A DNA stretch of 64,000 nucleotides, from the NCBI GenBank assembly GCA_008534395.1, contig SHMQ01000002.1, forward strand, positions 74,310 through 138,309. Direction: 5' to 3'. The notes beneath the pieces were generated by a model, which made no database searches, was not told where the DNA came from, and was given only the letters and a program-made list of their open reading frames with translations. Each line of letters begins with the position of its first letter. Within the stretch, counting starts at the first letter, position 1. Shown here one piece after another: positions 402-31,203 of this stretch. The DNA is from Candidatus Acidulodesulfobacterium acidiphilum. Lineage in GTDB: Bacteria > SZUA-79 > Acidulodesulfobacterales > Acidulodesulfobacteraceae. Position numbers and translations under genes: made by a program.

Positions 402-653
402 TTAAAAACAGTAATAAGAAATATAATCGTCTCCCTGTTTTTTGGCAATTTCCATATCTTCTTTTATTACTTTTTTTGTTTCTTCCCTGATATATTCATC
501 TTTTAATGCTTTTTTTAATTTCTCTAAAGATATCTCGATTATACCGGCAGCATTAGAATTAAGCATATCTATATCGATATACCTTAACAGCTCCCCTATC
601 GAAAAAGAATATTCGTATTCAAGCTTTATTATCCTGTGCGCTCCTACCCCCAT
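402..653 (-). CDS. Hypothetical 83-aa protein downstream of orphan retron-like RNA
   Basis: Starts at ATG with a GAGGTG ribosome site five bases upstream. The product is small, acidic-basic and probably helical, ending in GDDYISYYCF. No family is recognised. It is the first gene downstream of the second retron-like RNA at 736-874 and could be an accessory gene read from the same promoter, but nothing in the protein shows a function. Confidence 0.5.
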   Translation of the reverse strand: MGVGAHRIIKLEYEYSFSIGELLRYIDIDMLNSNAAGIIEISLEKLKKALKDEYIREETKKVIKEDMEIAKKQGDDYISYYCF

Positions 654-735
654 TTTTACACCTCATCTTATTTATTTTTTTTATTTGATTTAAGTTTTTT
701 TTATAAGGCGGTTTAGCTTTAAACTATCCCGCCCG

Positions 736-874
736 CATAGGCACTTAAGTTCCATAATAAGCTCCGCCTGCGGAGCTTTAGGAACGACATATCCGTATCT
801 AACCTCATTGTCTCGCTATGCCGAATCAGCATAGCTATTAATTCTCTAAGTTGTTTTTTTATTTACTGCCTATA
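736..874 (-). ncRNA. Orphan retron-like msr-msd RNA, second copy
   Basis: Same design as the retron RNA at 3372-3575. Terminal inverted repeats at 862-874 (a1) and 736-748 (a2) pair with one C-C mismatch at the same position as in the first copy. An msr-type hairpin at 815-835 (GCTATGC stem, CGAATCA loop) lies exactly 26 nt from a1, as in the first copy, and the linker contains the shared CTAAGTTGTTT. Stem changes are compensatory: GTTATGC/GCATAAC becomes GCTATGC/GCATAGC. The msd-like hairpin is different and short (749-785, GTTCC/GGAAC outer stem with an inner AGCTCCGC/GCGGAGCT stem). No reverse transcriptase gene adjoins it. Transcript ends are inferred. Confidence 0.65.
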
Positions 875-890
875 TTTTTATAGCGAAGTT
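871..890 (-). promoter_or_regulatory. Recurrent promoter-like motif, copy 2
   Basis: AACTTCGCTATAAAAATATA on the minus strand, ending where the a1 arm of the orphan retron-like RNA begins. This places the likely transcription start at the RNA's 5' end. Confidence 0.5.
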
Positions 891-922
891 ATTCATTTTT
901 CTTTTTTGTCCGCATTGCGTAT

Positions 923-1675
923 TTAATATTCTTCTTCATTAAATAAATACTTCCTGTATTGTAATAAATCTTCCCTCGTCAATTCAGGAAAGTCGGCGGC
1001 AAAAGGAAAATCTAAATCGTCCGTTAAATATTCATTTATTTTTATATCCGGAATTTGAAAATTTATAAGCCTTAAACATTTTTTTAAGGTAAAATGCATA
1101 CTCGATAAACTCAAATACTCGTGGGCGGTATGCTCGTTATAGAACCCCGCCGAAAGATTAACGTTAAATCTTGAAAATCTTGACGAAAGCGTTAAAACGT
1201 CAGAATAACTGCCGATATTTTCTTTATATCCAAGCTTTTTGAAAATACGGTTTATATCTTCGCTCCCATAACCGTAATTAACAAATTCCCTAAATCCCCG
1301 ACGGTCAAGCCCGACAAAAAGCTTATGCTTTATGTCGTTAAAATCCATACAAAAAGCATTTACTCCCGCCTTTGTGGTTTCCTCGAAGTCTGTTATTAAT
1401 ATAGAAGCCCCCGCTTTCGCGAGGCTATAGGCTATCCAGACGCCCGCCCTGTCGTCGGCTCCCAAAATACCGTTTCTGTTGTAAATAAAATCGCCATATC
1501 GCTTTATATTAAATTCATTATCTCTTTTAACCGTATCGACGTGCGCATTGAAAAGAACGTCCGTATTACTTCCTTCTAAATAAAAATATGTTTTCTTATA
1601 AATCCCGTTTTTAAAAACCTTTTTAAAGTTATAAAATATTTCCTCTTTGCTTGCCGTTAGAAATTTTTTTATCAT
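923..1675 (-). CDS. M20/M28-type zinc peptidase
   Basis: A 250-aa cytoplasmic metallopeptidase with the full set of di-zinc ligands in order: NAHVDTV (His and Asp), GADDRAG (bridging Asp), TDFEET (catalytic Glu and metal Glu), GLDRRG (Asp) and EHTAHEY (His). This pattern is that of M20/M28/M42 co-catalytic aminopeptidases. It is short because the lid or dimerisation domain is absent. The start codon directly follows the stop of the upstream 286-aa gene (TAAATG), so translation is probably coupled. Its position next to a retron makes it an effector candidate, but it could equally be a nutrient or processing peptidase; the substrate is unknown. Confidence 0.75.
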   Translation of the reverse strand: MIKKFLTASKEEIFYNFKKVFKNGIYKKTYFYLEGSNTDVLFNAHVDTVKRDNEFNIKRYGDFIYNRNGILGADDRAGVWIAYSLAKAGASILITDFEETTKAGVNAFCMDFNDIKHKLFVGLDRRGFREFVNYGYGSEDINRIFKKLGYKENIGSYSDVLTLSSRFSRFNVNLSAGFYNEHTAHEYLSLSSMHFTLKKCLRLINFQIPDIKINEYLTDDLDFPFAADFPELTREDLLQYRKYLFNEEEY

Positions 1676-2536
1676 TTATATGCTCCTTTTATAATCTGCT
1701 AAAGCCTCTTTAATAGAACCGCAGCAGGCTATCCTTGAATGTCTTTTATGTTCAGCTTGTCCGCAAATCGGACAAATGTATTCCTGATTTTCTAATTCAT
1801 TGTAAAAAACTTCTTTTATCATTAGGCTTTTAAAATCTTCTACCTCGCTGTCTTTAACCGCTATAAAAGGGTCTAAATAAGTGCCGTGCATAGCACCCGC
1901 CCCGTTATATTCTTTAATCTTGTATTTTTCTATACCTATTAATTTAGCTATTTCCTGCCTCATCGTTTCCCCGTCAAATTGAGAGCCGTAATTTTTAAAC
2001 ATTAAAAAACCTTTTTTGCCGTCTTTTTCATAGAAATATAGCCAAGCCCTGCTCGTCTTTCTGCCTTTTTCCTGCGAAAATAAAATCGCCGTTCCGGGCA
2101 TTAATGCCCATTTAGGGACGCCGTGCGAATAACAACCGCCATCGGCAAAACAAGACTTAAATGTTGCGAAATCCGAAGGACTTAACATATCCGCAGGATT
2201 TGTAGATATAATAAAATCCGTTTTTCTGTCATAAGCTCCCGATGCATATAATTCAAAGTCGGCGGTATAGTCGTATCCCTTTTCTTTTGCTTTTTTGACT
2301 ATAAACCTTGTAAACTTTCCGTCGTCGGTAAGCCTGTTTTTTATTATCTCTTCGTCCGTTATCGTTTGACCTGTAAAGCTTCCGTAATATCTTTTTAAAT
2401 TTTTTAAATCCCACCTGTCCAAACCGGCAGGTAAAAACATTTTCGTTCTGTAATTATTTTCTTTATTATGTTTTAGCAATATCCTTGTTTTTTCCTTTGC
2501 GGTATTTAACGTGTCTATAAAAAAATCGTTTAGCAT
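1676..2536 (-). CDS. Unknown 286-aa protein with C-terminal zinc finger
   Basis: Translated from ATG at 2536 behind GGGAG. I recognise no family. Visible features are a conserved-looking core with STNPADMLSPSDFATFKSC, GGCYSHGVPKWALMPGT and SRAWLYF, and a C-terminal zinc finger with CPICG then HKRHSRIACCG. The cysteines and histidines in the core suggest a second metal site. It has its own promoter-like motif at 2585-2605 but lies directly downstream of the reverse transcriptase and is translationally coupled to the peptidase, so the three may act together. Retron effector status is inference. Confidence 0.55.
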   Translation of the reverse strand: MLNDFFIDTLNTAKEKTRILLKHNKENNYRTKMFLPAGLDRWDLKNLKRYYGSFTGQTITDEEIIKNRLTDDGKFTRFIVKKAKEKGYDYTADFELYASGAYDRKTDFIISTNPADMLSPSDFATFKSCFADGGCYSHGVPKWALMPGTAILFSQEKGRKTSRAWLYFYEKDGKKGFLMFKNYGSQFDGETMRQEIAKLIGIEKYKIKEYNGAGAMHGTYLDPFIAVKDSEVEDFKSLMIKEVFYNELENQEYICPICGQAEHKRHSRIACCGSIKEALADYKRSI

Positions 2537-2584
2537 TTTTAAAACTCCCTTTTATTTGTCCGCAATGCGAACTTTTTAACTTCC

Positions 2585-2605
2585 TATATATTTAGCGAAG
2601 TTAAA
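2585..2605 (-). promoter_or_regulatory. Recurrent promoter-like motif, copy 3
   Basis: TTTAACTTCGCTAAATATATA on the minus strand, between the stop of the reverse transcriptase and the 286-aa gene. A GTCCGCAATGCG half-palindrome follows at 2558-2569, as near motif copies at 871 and 15595. Confidence 0.5.
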
Positions 2606-3325
2606 TTAACCAAAAATCCCCGCCTTACTTTTAACCATTTTCCCGTAATTTTGCAAAAAAACAACCTTGCCTTGATGTTTTTCCGCCCTGATTTTCTTTT
2701 TCATTTCTTTTGTTAATCCGACTTTTTGATTAACGACAAGACCGCAAACATATTGCCTTTTCCAAGACGGCATTTTCTTTACTTTTTCGTAATTTATTTC
2801 CATACCGTATTTATTTAACTGCTTAACTATAAAAGATAAGGCTTTTTCCATAAGGTCATAGTCGTTTCCCGAAAAAGTTAAATCGTCTGCATATCTCGTA
2901 TATGCTATATTAAACCCAGCTAATTTTTTGGCGGTTTTATAATCGAATTTTTTTAAATATAAATTTGCTATATAGGGGCTCGTCGGCGCTCCCTGCGGAA
3001 GTCTCTTGCCTTTTCCGTCTTTAAAATCATAAAAACAAAGACCCCATTTAAGCTTTGCTTTTATAATCGATTTAGCTTTTTCAAGCGTAATAGAAGGAAA
3101 AAAATCTTTTATATCTATTGAATAAACGAATCTTTTATTTACGTGCGGTTTTGCGTTTGAAACTATGCTTTTGTTCGGCGTAAATCCGTGCGTATAAGGG
3201 CTGGCAGGATAGGCTTTATATAAGTATTTCAAATAATCTTCCTGCCTCTTTTTCGTTATGGGGTCTGGAGCTTCGATATGCCTCGTTCCTCCGTTTTTTT
3301 TCGGAATTTCAAAAACCCTATACAT
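2606..3325 (-). CDS. Retron-type reverse transcriptase
   Basis: RT domain with all core motifs: RT1 around RVFEIPKKNGGTRHIEAP, the retron NAxxH motif as NAKPH, the first catalytic Asp in YSIDIKDFFPSI, LPQGAPTSP, and the YADD box with RYADDLTFSG. The retron VTG motif appears as VCGLVVN. The usual start at 3370 lies almost in the RNA a2 arm and has no ribosome site; ATG at 3325 has AAAGGAGG eight bases upstream and is preferred, giving 239 aa. That is compact for a retron RT (usually about 300), lacking the N-terminal helices and part of the thumb. The msr-msd RNA lies immediately upstream, which argues against group II intron or DGR alternatives. Confidence 0.88.
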   Translation of the reverse strand: MYRVFEIPKKNGGTRHIEAPDPITKKRQEDYLKYLYKAYPASPYTHGFTPNKSIVSNAKPHVNKRFVYSIDIKDFFPSITLEKAKSIIKAKLKWGLCFYDFKDGKGKRLPQGAPTSPYIANLYLKKFDYKTAKKLAGFNIAYTRYADDLTFSGNDYDLMEKALSFIVKQLNKYGMEINYEKVKKMPSWKRQYVCGLVVNQKVGLTKEMKKKIRAEKHQGKVVFLQNYGKMVKSKAGIFG

Positions 3326-3371
3326 TTTCAAATCCTCCTTTGGCGGGATTTTAATATCCCGCCGTTGCATT

Positions 3372-3575
3372 AATAGACACTAAAAGTAAGCGGGGGCGGC
3401 GAAGAGTTCGCAGAGGTAAAGCGTATTCCCCACTATCTTTTTTTTCCTGTAGCTTTACCTTGCGAATCGTCGCCGCCAGAGCGGAAACCTGATAAAGCTA
3501 AACCTGATTAACTTGTTATGCCGAAACAGCATAACCGTTGCAAGAACTAAGTTGTTTGTCTTTTTACTGTCTATT
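3372..3575 (-). ncRNA. Retron msr-msd RNA
   Basis: Lies directly 5' of the reverse transcriptase. Arms a1 (3562-3575) and a2 (3372-3385) form an inverted repeat of eight pairs, one C-C mismatch and five more pairs. The msr hairpin at 3515-3535 has a GTTATGC stem and a TGTTTCG loop. The msd is one long imperfect hairpin at 3395-3477 with arms GGCGGCGA..GGTAAAGC and GCTTTACC..TCGCCGCC and a purine-rich loop. This order (a1, short msr stem, long msd stem, a2, RT) is the standard retron layout. The branching guanosine and exact 5' end cannot be fixed from sequence alone. Confidence 0.82.
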
Positions 3576-3599
3576 TTGATATCTTAATAACGAGTTATT

Positions 3600-3731: not shown

Positions 3732-3755
3732 TTTCGTATCCTCTTTACTGTTCCT

Positions 3756-3776
3756 TATATATAAATAGCGAAGTTG
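3756..3776 (-). promoter_or_regulatory. Recurrent promoter-like motif, copy 4
   Basis: AACTTCGCTATTTATATATAA on the minus strand, upstream of the zinc-ribbon gene and the retron RNA. A degenerate further copy (AATAACTCGTTATTAAGATAT) sits at about 3578-3600, directly before the retron a1 arm. Confidence 0.5.
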
Positions 3777-4078: not shown

Positions 4079-4370
4079 AGCGGGGGATTAAAAGGGAGAA
4101 ACGCCCCGAAACCTCAACTTAAAAACGCTTCGAAGGACAAACCGGACAGAATCGTTTCGGGGCGTTTCGGAAACAGGCAAATCCCCCGCCCCGCCGTTAT
4201 AAAAAATTTCAAGGGGAATTCGATAGAAAATTAAACCCGAAGGGCTTGCAGGCTTTAGCCTGTTTATATTTTCTGTCGCAATTCTCCGTCAGGCGGTTTA
4301 GGAAAATTCGATAACAGTTTTATCGTTGTCGAATTTTCCGTTAAAAACCGCCTGTGAAATTTTTGCCTAA
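4079..4370 (-). ncRNA. Structured RNA module, copy 1
   Basis: One of two homologous non-coding modules (the other is 7233-7563). Three nested hairpins are seen. The first is at 4079-4190 with outer GCGGGGGATT/AATCCCCCGC and inner GAAACGCCCCGAAAC/GTTTCGGGGCGTTTC. The second is at 4212-4288 with GGGGAATTCGA../TCGCAATTCTCC and an inner AGAAAAT/ATTTTCT stem. The third is at 4292-4352 with GGCGGTTTA/AAAAACCGCC around GGAAAATTCGA/TCGAATTTTCC. The inner stem of the second hairpin is replaced by AGGTTTG/CAAACCT in the other copy, so pairing is kept while sequence changes. Strand is inferred from the promoter-like motif at 4741-4763. Confidence 0.55.
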
Positions 4371-4740
4371 TAAACCGCCGACGTGGAGCTTGCGGATATG
4401 TCGGCGCACTATTTTGCCGTAGCGGTTTTCTTTTCCAAGAAAAAACAATATAAAAACGGAATAGTTTCAGGCAGCTCTCCTGACCGGACGGACGGTTCCT
4501 GCGGGACGGCGAATCTGCGGCGCCCAGACAAACTTAAAAATGTGGAATAACGATAAAGGGTATTTCTGTAATATAAAGGATTAACGGATTAAAATTGCCG
4601 CCGAAGGCGGCCGGCGCCGCCGGAGTTTTTTTATTTTATTTTCTAAATTATTTTAAAATCGGAAAAAGTCAGGTTATCCGGTCTGTTAAACCGTCGGTCA
4701 GGGGAGCGACCCGCTGACGCTGCCGCCCTGACTTTCTCCT
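4371..4740 (-). other. Non-coding, GC-rich hairpins next to RNA module
   Basis: No credible gene. Hairpins include CGCCGAC/GTCGGCG at 4376-4406, GCCGCC-GAA-GGCGGC near 4599-4613, and AAAGTCAGG/CCTGACTTT at about 4666-4735 enclosing a GTCAG/CTGAC stem. If transcription starts at the 4741-4763 motif, these would form the 5' part of the same RNA. Confidence 0.4.
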
Positions 4741-4763
4741 TATATATTTATAGCGAAGTTAAA
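4741..4763 (-). promoter_or_regulatory. Recurrent promoter-like motif, copy 5
   Basis: TTTAACTTCGCTATAAATATA on the minus strand, between the stop of the 91-aa gene and the structured non-coding region. It suggests that region is separately transcribed. Confidence 0.5.
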
Positions 4764-5039
4764 TCAAATTTCAATGTAAGTATTATGACCGCATAACCTT
4801 ATATACTCTTTAACTTCATTTCTTCTTAAATATTCCTTGAGGGTTCTTTTTAATTCTAAATTTATAATCGCCGCTTGCTGTTCCCGTTTTGCATTTTTTA
4901 TCTCTTCTTTTTTTATTGCGATAACTGCTTTTAATCTGTTGTTGTTTATTTTTTTTAATAAAATGTTTAAAAAGTTATAAAATTCTTTACCCGACTTGCT
5001 AATTGCTATTTTTAAAACTTCCTTTTCTATCGTATCCAT
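4764..5039 (-). CDS. Hypothetical 91-aa helical protein
   Basis: ATG at 5039 follows AAGGAGA. The product is lysine- and glutamate-rich and probably all helical (for example KKEEIKNAKREQQAAIINLE), ending in a small LCGHNTYIEI tail. No family is recognised. It is the last gene of a run of small minus-strand genes (6607-4764) separated by short hairpins. Confidence 0.5.
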   Translation of the reverse strand: MDTIEKEVLKIAISKSGKEFYNFLNILLKKINNNRLKAVIAIKKEEIKNAKREQQAAIINLELKRTLKEYLRRNEVKEYIRLCGHNTYIEI

Positions 5040-5061
5040 GATAAATATCTCCTTTTTAAAA

Positions 5062-5148
5062 TTAAATAAAAAATAATGCTGTTAATAAAATCATAAAGAA
5101 CGTTATGCTTATGCCCTGCTCTATATATTCTTTCGTTATAGCTTTCAT
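5062..5148 (-). CDS. Putative 28-aa single-span membrane peptide
   Basis: A short ORF with ATG at 5148 behind GGGGGC. A charged head (MKAITKEYIEQG) precedes one hydrophobic segment (ISITFFMILLTALFFI). It sits between two ribosome-site-bearing genes of the same strand with an intercistronic hairpin upstream, like its neighbours. It is too short to assign and might be spurious. Confidence 0.35.
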   Translation of the reverse strand: MKAITKEYIEQGISITFFMILLTALFFI

Positions 5149-5160
5149 AATTGCCCCCAT

Positions 5161-5181
5161 GGCGGGGTTGTTAGCCCCGCC
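5161..5181 (-). repeat. Intercistronic hairpin, identical to 6217-6237
   Basis: GGCGGGGTTGTTAGCCCCGCC, a perfect seven-base-pair stem, occurs identically at 6217-6237. Each lies just upstream of a ribosome site. The 5605-5625 (GCCCCT/AGGGGC) and 6491-6507 (GCCTGC/GCAGGC) hairpins occupy the same relative place before other genes of this run. Confidence 0.6.
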
Positions 5182-5207
5182 CGTTATAGTTGTAAAGGTT
5201 GTTTATT

Positions 5208-5597
5208 TTATAAATCTATTTCCAAAGGGTCTTCTCCCAAAACAGGACTGCAAGATATTTTTATCTTTTTTATTTCGCCCGTGTCAATATCGAAACCCCG
5301 CTGAACGTAAAAATCTTCTTCTTCCGCTCTGTTTATGATTTCTCCGTTATTGCCGCAATATTTATCCGATTCCGCAATGGCTTTTATTAATTTGCTTTCA
5401 ATGGAAGGATACTTCTTAATTATTTTTTCTTTTGATAAAATTTCTTTAGCGTCATACAAGAACCCTTCTTTAAGGATTTTTTCAATCCTTTTTTGTGCGT
5501 CTTCGATAAATTCGACCGCTGTAGAAAATTCCTGACAGGCTAAAAAATGTATTGCGTTTTTTAAATCCGTCTGCGTGTTATAAAAAAAATATTTCAT
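5208..5597 (-). CDS. Hypothetical 129-aa acidic protein
   Basis: A longer frame is open to 5657, but ATG at 5597 (MKYFFYNTQ) has a GGGGG ribosome site and is preferred. The first two thirds are helical with many Glu/Lys (FIEDAQKRIEKILKEG); the end is acidic (EEEDFYVQRGFDIDTG). There are no cysteine clusters or membrane segments. The family is unknown. Confidence 0.5.
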   Translation of the reverse strand: MKYFFYNTQTDLKNAIHFLACQEFSTAVEFIEDAQKRIEKILKEGFLYDAKEILSKEKIIKKYPSIESKLIKAIAESDKYCGNNGEIINRAEEEDFYVQRGFDIDTGEIKKIKISCSPVLGEDPLEIDL

Positions 5598-5646
5598 AAT
5601 TACCCCCTGCCCCTCTTTCGAGGGGCTTTTAAAATTAATGTTAAAA

Positions 5647-6195
5647 TTAAAATGCAAAAGCGGTTTGTAAGTTTTTCGTTGCCTGCTCCGGCTGTCTTTT
5701 TTGATATTTTGCTTTTATTTTTATTTCGTCTTCTTCGATTTCGTCCTCGTCGAACATTCCGGCGCTTTCATTGTAGGTTTCCCATTTTTTCGCTGGGATT
5801 AAATCTATAAGCTCTGTTGCTTTTCCGTCCTGAGATATTACGGTATTTAAAGAAGCAGTAAAACAATTTTTCAAATCAAGGTAGCTTATTATCGCTTTTT
5901 CAAGTTTTCTTTCTAATTTATTTTTTTTGCCGGGAATGTAAACTTTTGCGGCTCTTGTTAAGGTAAGAAACAGGCGGTATATTTCGCCTTTTAAATTTCT
6001 ATTAAAGCGGTCGAAGTCTTTCTGGTCTTTAAATTCGATGTTTAAAAATTGCGGATAGTTTGTTGCCTTCTGCATTATCTTTTCAATAAGATATGCTTTA
6101 ATATGTCTATCCATAAGCAAATCTCTATTTATTACTTCTTCGTTCATTTCTTCGATTGCCATATTAACAAATGTTTCAATTATTTCGCTTTTCAT
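5647..6195 (-). CDS. Hypothetical 182-aa protein
   Basis: ATG at 6195 follows AGGAGAAG. An alpha-helical core (residues about 1-120) with FNRNLKGEIYRLFLTLTRA and KLERKLEKAIISYLDL is followed by an acidic stretch (MFDEDEIEEDEIK) and a basic tail. I see a faint likeness in size and residue spacing to the 152-aa protein at 25050-25508 in the other element, too weak to call homology. Function unknown. Confidence 0.5.
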   Translation of the reverse strand: MKSEIIETFVNMAIEEMNEEVINRDLLMDRHIKAYLIEKIMQKATNYPQFLNIEFKDQKDFDRFNRNLKGEIYRLFLTLTRAAKVYIPGKKNKLERKLEKAIISYLDLKNCFTASLNTVISQDGKATELIDLIPAKKWETYNESAGMFDEDEIEEDEIKIKAKYQKRQPEQATKNLQTAFAF

Positions 6196-6216
6196 TTTTT
6201 CTTCTCCTCTATTTAT

Positions 6217-6237
6217 GGCGGGGTTGTTAGCCCCGCC
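6217..6237 (-). repeat. Intercistronic hairpin, second copy
   Basis: Identical in sequence to 5161-5181; lies between the 75-aa gene and the ribosome site of the 182-aa gene. Confidence 0.6.
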
Positions 6238-6249
6238 GTTATTTAAAAT

Positions 6250-6477
6250 TTATTTATTGTGAAATATCCTTTTATATAACTTTACAGTGTGTTTTATCTC
6301 GTCTGGTAGATAATAGCCCCCAATGAAAGATTTACGATTGCCATATATTAATTCAGCTTTTTTTCCTCCTTTTTTCACGTATAAATATAAGGAATGGTAG
6401 AACGTCAACGCCTCCCAATCCTTTACTTTGTATAAAATTTTTGTTGCAATTTTTAAGCTTTCCTCATTCATTCTCAT
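6250..6477 (-). CDS. Hypothetical 75-aa basic protein
   Basis: ATG at 6477 has AAAGGAGA upstream. The sequence is basic with many aromatic residues (KDWEALTFYHSLYLYVKKGGKK), and could bind nucleic acid, but has no recognised motif. It is one of the small genes of the 4.7-6.6 kb run. Confidence 0.45.
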   Translation of the reverse strand: MRMNEESLKIATKILYKVKDWEALTFYHSLYLYVKKGGKKAELIYGNRKSFIGGYYLPDEIKHTVKLYKRIFHNK

Positions 6478-6520
6478 TTTGTTTTCTCCTTTGCCTGCCT
6501 ATGCAGGCTTTTAAAGTTAA

Positions 6521-6607
6521 TTAAATTAAATGTGCTAACTGATAAAGGTTAAAAACTACCAAACTAAAATCTAAAGCCATTAAACTTATTCCGATTAACC
6601 TATCCAT
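6521..6607 (-). CDS. Putative 28-aa membrane peptide
   Basis: ATG at 6607 has a perfect GGAGG seven bases upstream. The product is nearly all hydrophobic (LIGISLMALDFSLVVFNLY). It would be the first gene of the small-gene run that continues to 4764. Its shortness limits confidence. Confidence 0.35.
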   Translation of the reverse strand: MDRLIGISLMALDFSLVVFNLYQLAHLI

Positions 6608-6668
6608 TTTCACTACCTCCGATTTAAATTTTTTTTAACTTTTAATAATTTTTTTTTAAATTTTTTTT

Positions 6669-6980
6669 GCTTTTTTTATCGCCCTTTTACCGTCGGAGAC
6701 ATTTGCGGAGTAAAATTTACTTTTTGCTTTGCAAGGCGTGCCAAAATTTGAAGAGATTAGAAAACAAAATATTTTAAATTTTTCTCTGCGTCGTTAGAGA
6801 TAAAGTAATGTCAATCTATTGTTTGAATGCAAGATATAAAAACGAACTGAAAAATTTAAAATATTTTTTTTCTACTCAAATAAAAAAATATTTTGGCACG
6901 ACTTGCTTAAGCAAAAAGCGTAGCGAAGCGAAGTCCGCAGGATAAATTTTACGTAGCAAATCTGGGGCGATAAAAAAAGC
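6669..6980. repeat. 312-bp imperfect inverted repeat (giant hairpin)
   Basis: Outer arms of 16 bp pair perfectly (GCTTTTTTTATCGCCC with its complement, 6669-6684 and 6965-6980). Further paired blocks follow inward: GTAAAATTTA/TAAATTTTAC, TTTTTGCTT/AAGCAAAAA, CGTGCCAAAAT/ATTTTGGCACG and a 19-bp block AAAATATTTTAAATTTTTC with its complement. The loop is near 6800-6850. No ORF with a ribosome site lies in it. It may be a structured RNA or a DNA site. Confidence 0.6.
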
Positions 6981-7232
6981 AAAAAAATCTAAAAAATAAA
7001 AGAAAAATATTCATACCACAAATACTACAAGTGCTTCTGTTTTAGTGAGGCAAGCAAAGCGAAGCCGAACTAAAACTCTTTTAAATCCTACAACATCGTT
7101 GTTTTTCCAAGTAAAAACTAATAAGTCTTATGCCGGTATTATGAACGCAGCGGGATCGTCGCTGTCTTAATGAAACGAAGTTTCGAAGAGAGTTCGCTTT
7201 TACTTTACTTAATAAGTAGTTATTCCTCGCTT
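6981..7232. other. Non-coding with short hairpins
   Basis: No gene seen. Short stems include GTTTTAGT/ACTAAAAC at about 7039-7077, CAACATCGTTG at about 7090-7100 (also at 8271-8281) and GAAAC-GAA-GTTTC at about 7173. It connects the giant hairpin to the second RNA module. Confidence 0.4.
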
Positions 7233-7563
7233 GCGGGTTCGGGACATAAGGGAGAAAACGGGCGCAAAATCACAATTAAAAACGCCCCAGAGGACAGCCC
7301 CATACAAAAAATTATTTTGCGTCCGTTTTCGGAATAGGTTTGTCCCGAACCGTCGCCGTCCGCAAAAAAATTTCAAGGAGAATTCGATAGGTTTGGTCAC
7401 AGGACGGACGTTATGGGATAACTTATCCAAGTTAAAAAACTATCCGCCGAAGCCTGTGAGCAAACCTGTCGCAATTCTCCGTCAGGCGGTTTAGGAAAAT
7501 TCGATAACAGTTTTATCGTTGTCGAATTTTCCGTTAAAAACCGACTGTAAAATTTTTGCCTAA
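7233..7563 (-). ncRNA. Structured RNA module, copy 2
   Basis: Homologous to 4079-4370. The first hairpin has outer GGTTCGGGACA/TGTCCCGAACC and inner AAAACGGGCGCAAAAT/ATTTTGCGTCCGTTTT. The second keeps the frame GGAGAATTCGATAG../CTGTCGCAATTCTCC but has a different inner part. The third (about 7480-7543) is almost identical to copy 1. A ribosome-site-free ORF at 7231-7494 crosses it and is taken to be spurious. Strand is assigned by analogy with copy 1. Confidence 0.55.
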
Positions 7564-7703
7564 GGGACGGGCGCAAGGAGCGAGCGACGCAGCGCCCCAC
7601 TAAATCGATTTAAGAACGTTAATCTTAAAAGCCTGTCCAAAGAAAAAGCTGGATTAACTTAAATTAAGTCCGAAAAATGCGCTCAGGTTAAGTTACCGAT
7701 ACT

Positions 7704-7785
7704 CTGCTATACGGCACGATATAAAAAAGAATCGGGCGCCCGTTGCGAAGCAATGGGCTAAAACTATAAAGATGCCGTATAGCAG
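7704..7785. repeat. Long hairpin H2
   Basis: CTGCTATACGGCA and its perfect complement TGCCGTATAGCAG enclose a second stem GCCCGTTGC-GAA-GCAATGGGC. It is part of an array of long hairpins filling 6.67-9.02 kb. Confidence 0.6.
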
Positions 7786-7880
7786 ATAAGATAATATAAA
7801 TACGTATAGCCGGATAAGCATACGGTATGCGTATAGATAGATAAACAGTCAGGTATTAGCAGTGAAGCACGTGCAGGGTT

Positions 7881-7983
7881 CAAGAAAGACAGGCGGGGTA
7901 TTCCACTAAAGCATTATAAAGACGAAAAGACTTTTAAAATAAAAAAAGCTCAAACGAAGACGTCCACCCCGCCGTCTTTCTTG
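7881..7983. repeat. Long hairpin H3
   Basis: CAAGAAAGACAGGCGGGGT pairs with ACCCCGCCGTCTTTCTTG around an A-rich 65-nt loop. No ORF. The flanking 7984-8490 holds a purine tract (8110-8205, almost only A and G) and a shadow ORF without ribosome site. Confidence 0.6.
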
Positions 7984-8490
7984 TGTAAGAAAAATAAGCG
8001 GCGCAAGCCGTTACAATTTTGAAACGAAAAGGCGGTTAAGAATAAAAGTTAAAAGAAACTATCAAAGCGGGAATCGGAACGACGAAGATGTTCCGAGAGA
8101 GCCCCAAGGCGAACGAGGAACGAAGGGAAAGGAAAAAAATGGAAAGGAAAAGAAGGGAAAGGAAAAAGGGAAATAAAGGAAAAAGGAAACGAAAAAAAAT
8201 TATCCGTTTATTCGGAGACGAAAAAGGAAAATTATTTATACCGTTCACTACGAATTAGATTTCAAAAACACAACATCGTTGTTTGGTTCGCAAGTGGAAA
8301 CGAAAGCAAAAAAACGATGTAAGAAATTCTTCTACGAAAAGCTGAATAGGAGTGTAAGGCTTTCGCTGTGGAGTGGAACGGCAGGATTGCCTTGTTGATA
8401 AAAAAATAAAAGTGCTAAATTGAATTACGTAAAAAAAGACGATAAAATTCAAAAACAAAAAGGCAATCCGAAGTGAAACGGAACAGCATC

Positions 8491-10637: not shown

Positions 10638-11927
10638 TTACGCCAGTATTCTTTCCGTTATCCAATTGTTATTCCTCCTTATATGCTCTATTTTATCTGC
10701 GGCAACCTGCTTATAGGATTTGCCGTCCGCTTTTATATAGTCACCGTTAATATCCTGAACGTAGCAGGCGTTTCCGGTAAATCCCGAAATATATCCCTTT
10801 TTACCGCATACCTTAACTTTATCCCATAATGCAAACTTCCTGCCGTTTACGGTAATTTCTTTGGTATTTTTAGCGTTCCTGACCGAATGGACGTTAGGCT
10901 CTTTTCTGCCTTTCCTCGCCGTAGCTTCGTGCAGGGAACGTTTCTTTTTTCTTGCCTGCTTAATAACAGTTATAAGAATAACGTTATCTTTTACTTCCGT
11001 TATGCCTGTAATAGCTATGGCGTCGTTATAATGCTCTTTTTCTAATTCAAGACTGCGCCTGTTTATAGAAGTAAGATAGCCGTAGGTAAATGCAACCTTA
11101 TCTCCATAAATAGCCTTAAATTCGTCCATAAGTTTATATCTTACGGCGTTATACATTGCGGCGGATATAAACTGCTTTGCTTTTTTGAGTTTTGATAAAG
11201 CTCCTGTCTTATGTCCTTTTATATGACAGCTTTTATGTAATAACGCAAGATTATCGGGTTTATTAGTCCCGCCGTCCGCTCTCGGTATTATATGGTGAAT
11301 ATGCCAGCCGTCATTTTCTTTGTAACCTTTATGACAAAGCTGGCATTTGCCGCTTTCTCTTACGAGTAAAAACTGCTTGGCGTTTTCATAGCCGTATAAA
11401 GAGCCCTGCTGATATTCAACGCCGGATATGTCGGGATTAATAAGTTTTTGCATATCGAATTTATTAATTTCTATTTTTAACGTATAATCGGGATAATAGC
11501 TTACGAGTTCGTTAATTTTATTAACTATATGCCTTGCTTTTTGTTCTATGCTCGACGGTAACCGTCCTGCTTTTTTATTGCAGCGGTTTAAAAATCTTGC
11601 CTTGCGGTAACGGGTATTTCTGTTTCTTCTACTACGTCTCAATACTTTTCTTGCCGCAAGTAAAGATTTAACGTCGGTTCTTAACCTGATTTCGCCTTTT
11701 TCTACTATTTTACCGTTATCCAACGCTACTGCGTATCCGGTAGTATCGCCGGGGTCAACGCCTACGGTTGCGTGCTGGACAATTTCGGGAGTATCGAACA
11801 ATAACCGGATAGTAAACGGCTTTTTCGATATTATTACCGCCTTGCCTTCTTTTAGCATACGCCTTACCTTGCCGTATCTTTTGGTCGGCATAAGCTGTTT
11901 TCCGTTCTTGCTAATTACTTTTACCAT
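10638..11927 (-). CDS. iscB: IscB RNA-guided nuclease
   Basis: A 429-aa protein with the full IscB domain order: PLMP domain (QLMP at residues 11-14, KAVIISKKPFTIRL), RuvC-I (GVDPGDTTGYA, about 56-66), arginine-rich bridge helix (RRSRRNRNTRYRKARF), RuvC-II (KIEINKF), HNH with a zinc ribbon (CQLC, then HIHHIIPRADGG, NLALLHKSCH), RuvC-III (HYNDAIAI) and a C-terminal target-recognition domain. All catalytic residues are present, so both strands of a DNA target could be cut. ATG at 11927 follows AGAGGT. The omega RNA lies directly upstream. No tnpA transposase is visible, so mobility would need one in trans. Confidence 0.93.
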   Translation of the reverse strand: MVKVISKNGKQLMPTKRYGKVRRMLKEGKAVIISKKPFTIRLLFDTPEIVQHATVGVDPGDTTGYAVALDNGKIVEKGEIRLRTDVKSLLAARKVLRRSRRNRNTRYRKARFLNRCNKKAGRLPSSIEQKARHIVNKINELVSYYPDYTLKIEINKFDMQKLINPDISGVEYQQGSLYGYENAKQFLLVRESGKCQLCHKGYKENDGWHIHHIIPRADGGTNKPDNLALLHKSCHIKGHKTGALSKLKKAKQFISAAMYNAVRYKLMDEFKAIYGDKVAFTYGYLTSINRRSLELEKEHYNDAIAITGITEVKDNVILITVIKQARKKKRSLHEATARKGRKEPNVHSVRNAKNTKEITVNGRKFALWDKVKVCGKKGYISGFTGNACYVQDINGDYIKADGKSYKQVAADKIEHIRRNNNWITERILA

Positions 11928-11936
11928 TTCTTACCT

Positions 11937-12204
11937 CTAAAAAGTTACTGTAAGTCTTCCTTTTGGAAGTTATTGCCCATCGGCAATGTTATAAGCGCTT
12001 TGTTAAATGAGGTTGACTAAGAGTTTCCTCTTTGTTTACAGAGCCTCGATAGAGCTTGACGCTTGGGCATTACGTCAGGGTATCATCACGCAAATAACGT
12101 AGTATCGGTTATGTCTCCGATACTTAGCCTAGACAACCAATTACTCTTGAACCTTACGGTTCAAACCCCGTCCGAAAGGGCGGGGTGATTGACATTACTC
12201 CTCC
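11937..12204 (-). ncRNA. IscB omega RNA with guide
   Basis: The 250-nt space before iscB is highly structured. In transcription order: ACCCCGCCC/GGACGGGGT (12165-12186), TTGAACC/GGTTCAA, AGTATCGG/CCGATACT, then smaller TTGCC/GGGCAA and ACTTCC/GGAAG stems near the gene. This is the position and style of HEARO/omega RNAs. In the family the guide precedes the scaffold, so it should be the roughly 16-18 bases at 12187-12204 flanking the insertion. Exact ends are inferred. Confidence 0.75.
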
Positions 12205-12588
12205 TTATTCACCTAAACGTTTTTTGTCGTCTAAAACGTCGAGCGAAAACTTGTTTTTTTTATCGCTTTTTATGCAGTAATCTTTTATATTTTTTTCGTC
12301 CTCTTTTAAAAAAAATCTAATAAGAAGAATGGCAAGCGTAGATAGAAAAAGAAATAAAACTATATAGAAATAAATTCCGAGCAGAGCGCTTGAATGTTTA
12401 GTCGGAGATACATAAATATAGCCGTAATATCCGTATTTGACAAACGTAAAAACTTTTGAAAACATATCCCCGAACACAAACGTAAAATAGCGTCCGTAGA
12501 ACAATTTAAGAAACAAAAAGGGAAGGAAAAAGCATAAAAAAATTATAAAAATAATCGACAGAGCTTTGACTACGTGGTCTTTATACAT
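12205..12588 (-). CDS. Membrane protein of transfer operon
   Basis: A 127-aa protein with two strong membrane segments (about residues 8-30 and 70-92) and a charged cytoplasmic C-terminus. It overlaps the upstream ATPase gene by 8 bases. It may be the membrane anchor partner of that ATPase, as in split coupling proteins, but there is no motif to prove it. After its stop an AGGAGGAGTAATG ribosome-site-plus-start sequence leads straight into the IscB insertion, suggesting a downstream gene was interrupted. Confidence 0.55.
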   Translation of the reverse strand: MYKDHVVKALSIIFIIFLCFFLPFLFLKLFYGRYFTFVFGDMFSKVFTFVKYGYYGYIYVSPTKHSSALLGIYFYIVLFLFLSTLAILLIRFFLKEDEKNIKDYCIKSDKKNKFSLDVLDDKKRLGE

Positions 12589-13798
12589 TCCTTAGCGCTT
12601 CCTCCATATTGATATGTTGAAACTTCATAATACACTTCGTTAAATCCTGCCTTATCAATATTTTTCCTATAGCGTTTCCCGGTTTCAAAGCCGATATCGC
12701 AGACGGCTGGACGAGCCAGTCTTTTACCTGCCCTGACGACACCATTGTAGTTCCGTGCGTCTCCATCGTGCGGGATTTAACCTCTTCGATTTTATAGCCG
12801 AAGAGTCTCGAAATATCTTCGTTCCTTAATCCGTCCTGCGCGAAGATAATTTTATTTCTTGCGTTGTTTAGTATGATATCTAAAAGCGTCGGATCAAATC
12901 TATCGGCATCGGAAAATGACTGAGTAAGCAAAGCTATTTCGATTCCGAATCCTCTTATTTCTTTTATAATTTTACTGAAATAAGAAAACATTAAATCCGA
13001 AAATTCATCTATGGCAAACGTCATAAGAAAATCTCTCTGACGCGGTTTTACAAGTCTGATATACTCTATCGTCATTCTTCCGAAAGCGTTTTCAGTTTCG
13101 ATATTTCTTAGCGAAAACCAGTTGTCGGCTTTAATATCTATATTTTCCGCATCTTCATAATTTAAATTCTTAGCAAGAGCGAACGGCTGAAGTTTATTTA
13201 AAAAATTAGATATCAAAGAGGCGTAATCTGAGTTATTGACTATACCCGATAAAATTAGTTCTTCAGGCTTCGATAAATAGCTTTTATAAGTATCGTACAG
13301 CCTTTTCATCTCGTCCCTAAATAACGATAAAAACAATTTTTCAAAGGTAATATTTTCGATATAATCTATCGCAAAAGACAGAGCCTGAACCGCAAAATTT
13401 TGATAAAACGTTTCTTCCGTAGATATAACTTTAGGATAGAGCGAATTCTTTAACATTTCGAGTATTTCATCTTTTTTAAGACCTTTAAGCAGATTTATTT
13501 TAGATTTCATATCGTAAAAATTAGCTTCCGGCTTATAAATCCTTGCGACCATTTTTGCATTTTCATCGCCCTTGCCGTCTATTACCGTGATATTTTTTTT
13601 ATTAATCCAAAGCGGCAATAAAACGCTTTCGGTTTTTCCGGAGCCGGTTATACCGAAAGCTATCATATGGGCATCGGGAAAAGGGATTTTTATAACAGGA
13701 CTGTCATCTTCTTTGGTCATATCCTTGATTAAGGCAAAAACCGGCAACGATTTTTTTTGCATATTATCAGACTGCTTTTTGTTATTTAGAATATCCAA
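12581..13798 (-). CDS. TraG/VirD4-like coupling ATPase
   Basis: A 405-aa soluble ATPase. Walker A is GITGSGKTES, Walker B is FAIDEFSDL, and the downstream motif ALLTQSF matches the TraM-recognition/TraG region of type IV coupling proteins. There is no N-terminal membrane segment; the next gene (12205-12588) could supply it. It follows parA-parB and the RHH gene by 3 bases. Role inferred: DNA delivery to a transfer channel supplied by another element, since no T4SS genes are present. Confidence 0.75.
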   Translation of the reverse strand: MDILNNKKQSDNMQKKSLPVFALIKDMTKEDDSPVIKIPFPDAHMIAFGITGSGKTESVLLPLWINKKNITVIDGKGDENAKMVARIYKPEANFYDMKSKINLLKGLKKDEILEMLKNSLYPKVISTEETFYQNFAVQALSFAIDYIENITFEKLFLSLFRDEMKRLYDTYKSYLSKPEELILSGIVNNSDYASLISNFLNKLQPFALAKNLNYEDAENIDIKADNWFSLRNIETENAFGRMTIEYIRLVKPRQRDFLMTFAIDEFSDLMFSYFSKIIKEIRGFGIEIALLTQSFSDADRFDPTLLDIILNNARNKIIFAQDGLRNEDISRLFGYKIEEVKSRTMETHGTTMVSSGQVKDWLVQPSAISALKPGNAIGKILIRQDLTKCIMKFQHINMEEALRNV

Positions 13799-27797: not shown

Positions 27798-27995
27798 ATG
27801 GCAAAAAAAATAGACACGATTAAGACGAAAAAATGTGCTGAAAGTTATCTCGATTTTTTACAAAATAAAAACTTAGAAAGCTATTTTTTGTATCAAAAAG
27901 ATTACAACAAATTGAACGCAGATGAGAAATTTTTAGTAATTTTAGATATCACGGTTTTGAAAGAAATAATCAAAGACGAATCAAAAGGTGAATAA
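27798..27995 (+). CDS. Hypothetical 65-aa protein, first gene of relaxase operon
   Basis: ATG behind AAAGGTG. Charged, probably helical, no motif. It ends two bases before the relaxase start and is the first gene of the transfer operon, a position often held by an auxiliary or regulatory protein. Confidence 0.5.
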   Translation: MAKKIDTIKTKKCAESYLDFLQNKNLESYFLYQKDYNKLNADEKFLVILDITVLKEIIKDESKGE

Positions 27996-27996
27996 A

Positions 27997-30900
27997 ATGT
28001 TGAGCGCAGGAAAACAATATCAAAACTACGAATATTACGCTAAAGATCCTATTTTTAGTGTCGAAGAAGGACATTTTATAGGAGGTCTTGCGGCTGAACT
28101 TGGATTCAAAGAAATGAACAAGGAAACATTCGAAAAATTACAAGCCGGACAAAACGCAAAAGGTGAACAAATCATCGAAATGGCGCAAGGGAAACACGAC
28201 CCAGGAAAAGATTTTACATTTTCTTTAGACAAAGATTTGTCAATTTTTATGTTATCATCTGAACAAAATAAAGTCGCAATGCAAAACGCTCTTAATGCAG
28301 CAGTTGACAAAATAATTGATACGGCCATAAGCGAAGGTTTTTTATCGTGGAGGGAACATAAAGGAGACCAAATAATAGACCATAAAATAACCGATAAAAA
28401 TCAAATTGCGGCTTATGGTTTTACTCAATCATTATCAAGAGACAACGATCCAAACGTTCACGCTCACATCGCTTTTTTTAATCAAACTAAAACAGAAAAT
28501 GGAGATTTTAGGGCTATATCTTTTGACGGTCTTTTCACAAAAGGAGCGCGCGAATATTTAGATAATGTCGGTAAAAATACATTTTTAGATACGCTTCAAA
28601 AAGGAATTAATAAAGATATTTCAAGCGAACTTGAAACGAACAAAAAAACAGGAGCAATTAACTTGAAAAGCTATAGCCAGGAAGACAGAGATTATTTTTC
28701 TAAAAGAAGTCAAGAAATAGAAAAAGCGAAAATAGAATTACAAAAAGAATATCCAAATGCTAGTAAGGGCGAGATATCACAAATGGCAAATAAATTGACC
28801 AGAAATGATAAAGATTTTGATTTTAAAAAAGAAGATTTAGACAAAGAATTAGAAAAAGTCAAGGGAAAAACTAACGCTATAGAAGCTAATATCGAGCTAT
28901 CAATGTCTTACAATAAAGAGAATAACTTAAGCTTTTATAAAACAAAACTTGTCTCAAGTTTGGATAATTATATGAAGGCTTTAACTCAAAAAGAAATCTA
29001 TAGCAGCAAAAATTCTTTATTCACGGAAGTATTAAAAGAAAACCGTTATGCTACAATCGAAAATGTCAAACAAGTTTATGACGAATATCTTAAAAACGGT
29101 AAAATTGAAGAACGAGATTTAACTACAAAAAACGGTCAAACTATCAAAACTTTTGCTTTAACCGAAGATTTAAAAGCAGCAGAAGAAATTTACAAAATGG
29201 CGGCAAACGGAAGAGGTAATTCTTTTACCGTAGGAACTAAAGAAGAAAATGATAAAATAATTGCACAATTCGAAAAAGAAAAAGGTTTTATTTTATCTCC
29301 GCAACAAAGAGAAGCAGTTGAAAAATTTATGAACCAAAAAGACCAGTTTAATTTTACGCAAGGATTCGCCGGAGCAGGAAAAACTACAGCTTTTGAATTA
29401 ACAAAAAGATTAGCTGAAAATTCTAATTTTTCTATTGTAGGTTTCGCAAATAACGGCAGCCAAGCTCAAAATTTAATGAATGAGAGCGGTATTAAAAGTC
29501 AGACTATGGCTAGTTTTATAGCCTCTGAAACAAAAAACAGACAAGGAGAAAAAGCCCTTGTAATAATTGACGAAGCGTCAATGACTGGTTTAAAAACTTA
29601 CTCAGAATTTTACAAAAAATTAAATGATACTTTCGGAGCTAATAATTGGAAAACTTCTTTAACTGGCGACACAAATCAACTACAATCAATTGGCAAGGGA
29701 AGAGTTTTTAACGATAATATAGAAAATTCTGAAAATAAAACGGTTATTTCTGATATAAGAAGACAAAAAAACGAAACTTTAAAAAGTCATATATACGAAT
29801 ATTATGAACAATTTGAAAAAAACAAAATAGACGGCCAAGAAATGGTAAAAAGTTTCAAAGATTATATAAAAGTAGTAAAAAAAGAAGATGATATTTTAAA
29901 AGAAGCGGTTAAAACTTATATGTCTTTTAATAAAAAAGAAAGTACCGTAATTTTGGTTAGAACTAACGAAGAAAAAAATATATTAAACGCCGAAATTAGA
30001 AAAGAACTTTCGCAACAAGGAATTCTAAAAGGTAAAGATAATTTTGTCGGAACTTTAACTAAAAAAAATATTGAAGAAACCAATAAATTAAAGTCTGAAA
30101 GCTACGAAAAAGGCGATATTATAAGTTTCAGGAAAAGTGAATATAAAGAAATAAGCCGCACAGACGATAAAAACAATCTTATTTATTATAAATCTTTTGT
30201 GTATAAAAATGTTGATAAAAATGTAAAAATCGACGAAGAAAAAAATAAAGTTTTTATTAAAGATAAAAAAAGCGGTTTAATTCAATCTTATGATTTAAGA
30301 AATTATGATAAAGAATCAAAAAACGTTTCTTATTTTATCGGTAAAAATGAATCAAGACTAAATTTATCCGAAAATAGCGAAAAAACTTTAAAAATTCAAA
30401 AATATGAAGAAAACAAAATATCTCTTAAAAAAAACGATAAAGTCATATTTACAGAAAATATCAATTTAATAAATAACACAGAAAAAACTGTTAAGTATAT
30501 TAAAGCTAGCGACCAAAGCTTGTTAACACAAAAAATTCTAAAAGCCGATAAAAATTTTAACAGAATTTTAGACGAAAAAAAGTTTAATAAAGAAATTGCT
30601 AAAGCGGAAAAATTAGGCGCAATAATTAACAGAGTCGAGCTTAAAAACAAAGACGGCAAATTAATAGGCGAATCGGCGAAAATAGTATATGAAGAGAAAA
30701 AAGAATTAAAAAACGGTCAATTTGCTACTTTTGTAGAAAAAAAAGGGAATATTTATAATTTTAAAGTCGGCGAAAATATTTTATCTTTAGATAAAAACAA
30801 TAAAAGTAACGCCGCAGCTTTACAAAAAATAGAACATGCTTATGCCGTCACGACCGATAAGGCTCAAGGGTTAGCCTTTCTAAATGTCGTTTCCGTCGGA

Positions 30901-31203
30901 GCTGTAAAAAAGACGGCACAAAAAATTTTGGTTGATATTACAAGAGCTATAAAAAACCTTGTGCTTATCGTTTCTGAAAAGTCAATGGAAAAAAAAGAAT
31001 TAGAAAATGGTAAACTCGGGAAAAGCGATTTAGAAAAGGCTTTTGAAAATAAACAAGAAAAAACGACTCTTAGAGAAGAAACTAAAAAGGAAATATTCGG
31101 AAATTCAAAAAATATAGATAAAACCGAAGAAAAAAAAGAAAAATTTGAAAATTCAAAAACTAAAGGTGAAGAAAATGAAAACGTTAGGGTTTATGGCAGA
31201 TGA
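27997..31203 (+). CDS. MobF conjugative relaxase-helicase
   Basis: ATG at 27997 (MLSAGKQ) behind AAAAGGTG; the GTG nine bases earlier is part of the ribosome site. 1068 aa. The N-terminal TrwC-type relaxase has the tyrosine cluster QYQNYEYY, GKDFTFSLDK and the HUH motif NVHAHIAF. The middle holds a RecD-like helicase: GFAGAGKTT, LVIIDEASM, LTGDTNQL, and a C-terminal VTTDKAQG/VDITRA. The third metal ligand, usually His in FxHxTSR, is Gln here (FTQSLSR). It should nick oriT and unwind the strand for transfer. Confidence 0.92.
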   Translation: MLSAGKQYQNYEYYAKDPIFSVEEGHFIGGLAAELGFKEMNKETFEKLQAGQNAKGEQIIEMAQGKHDPGKDFTFSLDKDLSIFMLSSEQNKVAMQNALNAAVDKIIDTAISEGFLSWREHKGDQIIDHKITDKNQIAAYGFTQSLSRDNDPNVHAHIAFFNQTKTENGDFRAISFDGLFTKGAREYLDNVGKNTFLDTLQKGINKDISSELETNKKTGAINLKSYSQEDRDYFSKRSQEIEKAKIELQKEYPNASKGEISQMANKLTRNDKDFDFKKEDLDKELEKVKGKTNAIEANIELSMSYNKENNLSFYKTKLVSSLDNYMKALTQKEIYSSKNSLFTEVLKENRYATIENVKQVYDEYLKNGKIEERDLTTKNGQTIKTFALTEDLKAAEEIYKMAANGRGNSFTVGTKEENDKIIAQFEKEKGFILSPQQREAVEKFMNQKDQFNFTQGFAGAGKTTAFELTKRLAENSNFSIVGFANNGSQAQNLMNESGIKSQTMASFIASETKNRQGEKALVIIDEASMTGLKTYSEFYKKLNDTFGANNWKTSLTGDTNQLQSIGKGRVFNDNIENSENKTVISDIRRQKNETLKSHIYEYYEQFEKNKIDGQEMVKSFKDYIKVVKKEDDILKEAVKTYMSFNKKESTVILVRTNEEKNILNAEIRKELSQQGILKGKDNFVGTLTKKNIEETNKLKSESYEKGDIISFRKSEYKEISRTDDKNNLIYYKSFVYKNVDKNVKIDEEKNKVFIKDKKSGLIQSYDLRNYDKESKNVSYFIGKNESRLNLSENSEKTLKIQKYEENKISLKKNDKVIFTENINLINNTEKTVKYIKASDQSLLTQKILKADKNFNRILDEKKFNKEIAKAEKLGAIINRVELKNKDGKLIGESAKIVYEEKKELKNGQFATFVEKKGNIYNFKVGENILSLDKNNKSNAAALQKIEHAYAVTTDKAQGLAFLNVVSVGAVKKTAQKILVDITRAIKNLVLIVSEKSMEKKELENGKLGKSDLEKAFENKQEKTTLREETKKEIFGNSKNIDKTEEKKEKFENSKTKGEENENVRVYGR

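Follow-up and report, generated by a model that had tools for sequence, protein, structure and literature searches.

Single-strand elements of the sso, ssi and Frpo kinds, found by sequence similarity, are known mostly from model plasmids; Frpo also drives early transcription, and by the F convention the transferred T-strand is the template strand of the tra and leading genes. The sso1 site of ICEBs1 is about 200 bp long, forms three stem-loops, is orientation-specific and is accompanied by a second, redundant region (PMC4595007), and ssi/Frpo sites are present on many conjugative plasmids (PMC7690428). Here we describe a folding element of about 350 bases, present twice in a window of 64,000 nucleotides from Candidatus Acidulodesulfobacterium acidiphilum (contig SHMQ01000002.1, positions 74,310–138,309). 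The module resembles the sso sites of ICEBs1 and rolling-circle plasmids, and ssi sites, in size (200–330 nt), in having several stem-loops, in strand specificity, in its location on conjugative elements and in occurring more than once per element, but no sequence similarity to plasmid records was found, and the module contains a three-way junction with extreme covariation. Like Frpo of F-like plasmids, it is a folded stretch of about 330 nt that is carried by an F-type element and precedes putative leading-region operons; in contrast with Frpo, it has neither homology to plasmid records nor −35/−10 hexamers clearly above chance, and the positions of its divergent copies are not those of promoters. 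Because two defining features of Frpo were looked for and not found, we do not claim Frpo membership.

Three further systems share some of its properties. ROOL and GOLLD are structured, non-coding and carried on mobile DNA, as the module is, but they are longer, and the module matches nothing in Rfam. HEARO (the IscB omegaRNA) is a structured element found on the same conjugative element and in the same genomes, but it adjoins an IscB-like gene, on the gene strand here, whereas the module has no constant protein partner. The IscB-like ORF lies at 10638–12193 (minus strand) with its HEARO RNA (RF02033, 110 bits); HEARO occurs three times on this contig (C2), and nine genomes of the lineage together contain about 20 copies. 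Finally, a retron adjoins module 1, but the slot before its reverse transcriptase (RT) gene is held by the retron's own ncRNA-like fold (about 3370–3580), and most other module copies have no RT nearby, so that both an msr-msd identity and an RT partner were rejected.

Architecture of the module and its host element

The initial annotation described two copies of a structured module, near-identical in some parts and divergent yet still pairing in others. Both copies are indeed present, on the plus strand, and fold far more stably than shuffled sequences (z of −6.6 and −9.4 as RNA; −10.8 for copy 2 as DNA). A 3′ part of 98 nt is 98% identical between them, the 5′ parts have diverged while keeping their pairing, and the compensatory changes quoted are real (GATAGAAAAT/ATTTTCTGTC against GATAGGTTTG/CAAACCTGTC and, in the inner 5′ stem, GAAACGCCCCGAAAC/GTTTCGGGGCGTTTC in one copy against GAAAACGGGCGCAAAAT/ATTTTGCGTCCGTTTTC in the other). 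Instead of the three nested hairpins proposed, the plan is a 5′ hairpin with an inner stem, then a three-way junction (P1, P2 and P3+P4) closed by P1, in which an AG/CGTTAA internal loop joins P3 to P4. The module is also larger than first described, as it ends in an additional 3′ hairpin, and the genome holds four copies rather than two.

The 5′ hairpin of module 1 spans 4080–4189, with an outer stem GCGGGGGATT/AATCCCCCGC (4080–4089/4180–4189) and an inner stem (4098–4112/4154–4168), both of which are swapped for other complementary sequences in copy 2 and in relatives. The core, a three-way junction at 4201–4367 supported by covariation, scores 135.6 bits with covariance model R1, which was built from seven copies including this one; its helices are P1 (4202–4211/4355–4364), P2 (4213–4287), P3 (4290–4299/4345–4354) and P4 (4301–4315/4325–4339). 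The 3′ hairpin (GCCGAC...GTCGGC), read from the sequence, occupies 4377–4405 and is followed by a CACTA-like end; its stem is replaced by GGGCGC/GCGCCC in copy 2. In module 2, the 5′ hairpin (7235–7351) is predicted to have GGGTTCGGGACA/TGTCCCGAACC as outer and GAAAACGGGCGCAAAAT/ATTTTGCGTCCGTTTTC as inner stem, the three-way junction lies at 7365–7560 (fold; 130.1 bits with R1, again for a copy used to build the model) with a longer apical insert in P2 than in copy 1, and the 3′ hairpin GGGCGC...GCGCCC, read from the sequence, is at 7569–7597, with CCCACTA after it.

The host is a large conjugative element with F-type T4SS genes (TraC_F_IV, TraG_N, TraH), a coupling protein, ParA/ParB-like genes and an integrase. 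Almost all of these are minus-strand genes; the TraG/TraD-like coupling-protein gene (12581–13798, minus strand; Pfam TraG-D_C, 1.1e-9) is opposite to the modules. Both modules sit just before minus-strand gene clusters. In the ORF list, the minus-strand ORFs at 402–3370, including the retron-type RT (2606–3370), read away from module 1, and the small ORFs between the modules (4764–5039, 5208–5657, 5647–6195 and 6250–6477) read away from module 2. Further left on the contig, still on the minus strand, are ORFs named by sequence reading as RecT, nucleases, helicase and SSB, and plasmid leading regions carry such genes (SSB, RecT, helicase; PMC11541004). Placement in a leading region, before genes such as ssb, fits the host elements if the position of oriT is assumed, but does not fit all divergent copies.

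The genome's four copies are shared equally between this conjugative element and a related one on contig C5, which has the same order as the window (module, small minus-strand ORFs, long hairpin, module); in one C5 copy P4 is swapped for a much longer complementary hairpin. The inter-module ORFs are partly conserved on the C5 element (5592–6248 at 70%), and ORFs 1676–2536 and 923–1675, which come after the RT, are conserved there. This RT is closest to PADLOC type XIII, and the retron-like unit before it (3365–3585, minus strand) has ends that pair like a1/a2 (ATAGACAGTAAAA/TTTTAGTGTCTAT), as well as hairpins resembling an msr and a long one resembling an msd; a partial second msr-like copy (801–890, 74% to 3501–3577) precedes the small ORF 402–653 and has no RT of its own. 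The long hairpin of the window (6640–7015) is an imperfect one of 350 nt, with a z of −11.2 as DNA, and lies in a largely non-coding stretch of 1.5 kb (6474–8014) that is 88% identical between the two elements, against 67–77% for their genes. A TCCTTATATATAAATAGCGAAGTT-like sequence occurs five times between minus-strand ORFs (371–394, 867–890, 2579–2602, 3752–3775 and 4737–4760) and also on C5. A second mobile element (about 22800–50400), with a TraI/TrwC-like relaxase ORF (27988–31203), a coupling protein and an integrase by tRNA-Thr, gave no module in the R1 search.

Covariation, folding strand and distribution

Searches with R1 brought up additional copies within the lineage, many of which share little sequence. 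With the covariance models (R1 and a second one, R2), relatives were found in 15–17 of the 30 genomes of the phylum-level lineage, depending on the cut-off, the 30-genome set being identical for the family, order and phylum searches; under stricter filters, none was found by covariance model in 116 genomes of other lineages. Neither module type matched any of 72,556 plasmids by blastn, and nine pattern matches in IMG/VR proved to be chance matches lacking the fold. Other conjugative elements carry divergent copies, and so do islands that have integrases and defence genes (such as those for Cas12a, SIR2-like and AriA/AbiL-like proteins). At one such locus (L097, 7023–11224), in another genome of the lineage, a CRISPR array and a Cas12a gene (1180 aa) follow the module directly, and genome G004 carries a tandem partial duplication (L037/L109), in which the full copy is preceded, at about 220 nt, by a second P4 hairpin.

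Covariation, which the initial annotation had proposed as a check, is very strong. In 27 distinct sequences, most of them outside R1 and aligned by fitting to that model, which leans the alignment towards structure, standard pairs fill 94.5% of the pair cells, against 68.7% after shuffling, and changes on both sides are seen at 45 of the 51 pairs, with double changes in 315 cells where shuffles give 91 ± 8; a shift of the partner by a single column lowers pairing to 50% or less. The hairpin tips are conserved, as is a T·G wobble inside an ATA/TGT step, between A–T pairs, once in P2 and once in P4. When both strands were folded, the plus strand was the stabler in 26 of 29 copies with RNA parameters and in 27 of 29 with DNA parameters; HEARO from the same genomes, used as a control, gave 18 and 16 of 19 copies, respectively. 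As relatives on other mobile elements keep the fold while the sequence changes, the fold is real; the plus strand, being the stabler, is the functional one, and the fold acts in single-stranded RNA or DNA. That the module is a structured non-coding element whose plus-strand fold is under selection is thus strongly supported.

To orient the copies, tblastn searches were run with the conjugation, partition and SSB/RecT proteins of the host element. Conjugation and partition genes are opposite to the module strand in 13 loci that carry them near the module, about seven independent placements, while integrases near modules occur on either strand. One further locus (G007:C7) has an SSB gene on the same strand as the module, at a distance of 18.7 kb and on the far side of an integrase. 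Genes to the right mostly run towards the module. The left-hand genes of divergent copies point either way, and the module is therefore not a general leftward promoter.

Transferred single strand, RNA or repeat

The location on mobile elements, the fixed strand and the orientation opposite to the conjugation genes fit an element of the transferred strand. We tentatively favour a reading in which the module is a cis-acting structure of the conjugative element that works as single-stranded DNA, as an sso/ssi site does. During transfer, the plus strand, template of the tra and establishment genes, would enter the recipient; the assignment of the T-strand to the plus strand leans on the F convention. 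On the incoming strand the module would fold into its 5′ hairpin and three-way junction, to which a polymerase or primase would bind to prime synthesis of the second strand. In the host element, the minus-strand operons immediately to the left of each copy may also be transcribed early from it, but a priming site is preferred to an Frpo-type promoter because the −35/−10 and homology tests failed and the divergent copies are not promoter-placed. We further consider, with similar reserve, that the module may be a new family of single-strand-acting structured elements, common to different conjugative elements and islands of one lineage, folding on the transferred DNA strand and covarying like a structured RNA.

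The initial annotation had instead proposed a new RNA class. A structured non-coding module with a selected plus-strand fold and no Rfam match is what we found; as for the RNA itself, no consistent promoter or terminator was seen, and the orientation is explained at least equally well by an element of the transferred DNA strand. It is nevertheless possible, if less probable, that the module is a new class of structured RNA on mobile elements, made as a free-standing plus-strand transcript of about 300–550 nt that binds protein or acts in trans; a life-style comparable to that of ROOL, GOLLD or HEARO is possible to the same degree. The stabler plus strand, the conserved U·G pairs and hairpin tips, the low copy number and the position of copies between genes of either orientation are all consistent with an RNA. 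So is an intrinsic-terminator-like site on the plus strand at 4606–4635, about 200 nt after module 1 and with no plus-strand gene called before it, but no such site was found after module 2. Moreover, −35/−10 hexamer pairs in or near the fold show no clear enrichment over shuffles in 30 copies (mean z of 0.1 ± 0.2 on the plus and 0.5 ± 0.2 on the minus strand), although promoters of this lineage may differ, and a fixed orientation relative to conjugation genes is unexpected for an independent RNA gene. As to known classes, the Rfam 15 gathering scan of the window left the modules without a match, and the hits of E-value scans, run on the window copies and on eight divergent ones, were all far below gathering scores; ROOL, GOLLD, OLE and HEARO, whose Rfam models stay under their cut-offs at the modules, were therefore rejected. 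AttC-like and hammerhead-like readings were also discarded, by eye, as the core motifs are lacking.

The substitution pattern does not separate DNA from RNA. A first count gave fewer one-sided and G·U changes in the module than in HEARO RNA (p about 1e-4), but this difference vanished with independent nearest-neighbour pairs, which handle relatedness (module against HEARO: GU:AC 18:13 and 9:5; single:double 31:62 and 14:19), and the count was set aside. Because evidence lies on both sides and this test failed after the correction, we hold the DNA reading as no more than a preference and keep the RNA as a serious possibility.

It is unlikely that the module is a MITE- or REP-like hairpin repeat, dispersed, non-autonomous and without function for its host element, with arms maintained by hairpin-templated repair. 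Copies of the divergent type form discrete units of about 310 nt that share their ends but have unrelated flanks, stem arms are swapped between close copies, and some contigs end near copies, as expected of such a repeat; however, copying of arms would erase both the strand asymmetry and the conserved T·G wobble, related elements keep the module at the same position, and genomes hold only about one to five copies. A RAYT/REP system was rejected, since the module and the Y1_Tnp gene do not track each other: some genomes have the module but no RAYT-like gene, and others such a gene but no module.

Least probable, and quite improbable, is a recombination or transfer-start site (oriT-like, or a folded single-strand recombinase site) that would allow satellites whose integrases are related to exploit the conjugative element: integrases near copies on several islands are 59–84% identical to that of the host element and the strand is fixed relative to relaxase and coupling-protein genes, but there are two copies per host element, both of them in front of gene clusters, the integrases differ in orientation and distance, and no nic-like motif has been established.

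Significance of the module

The sso, ssi and Frpo elements act on the incoming single strand and help to set the speed at which conjugative DNA becomes double-stranded and is expressed. The module matches no Rfam family, and the likeliest, though tentative, reading is that it works like sso/ssi sites. If it is such an element, covariation and strand orientation can find elements of this kind in uncultured lineages; if it is an RNA instead, mobile elements with defence genes would carry a new and strongly supported RNA class.
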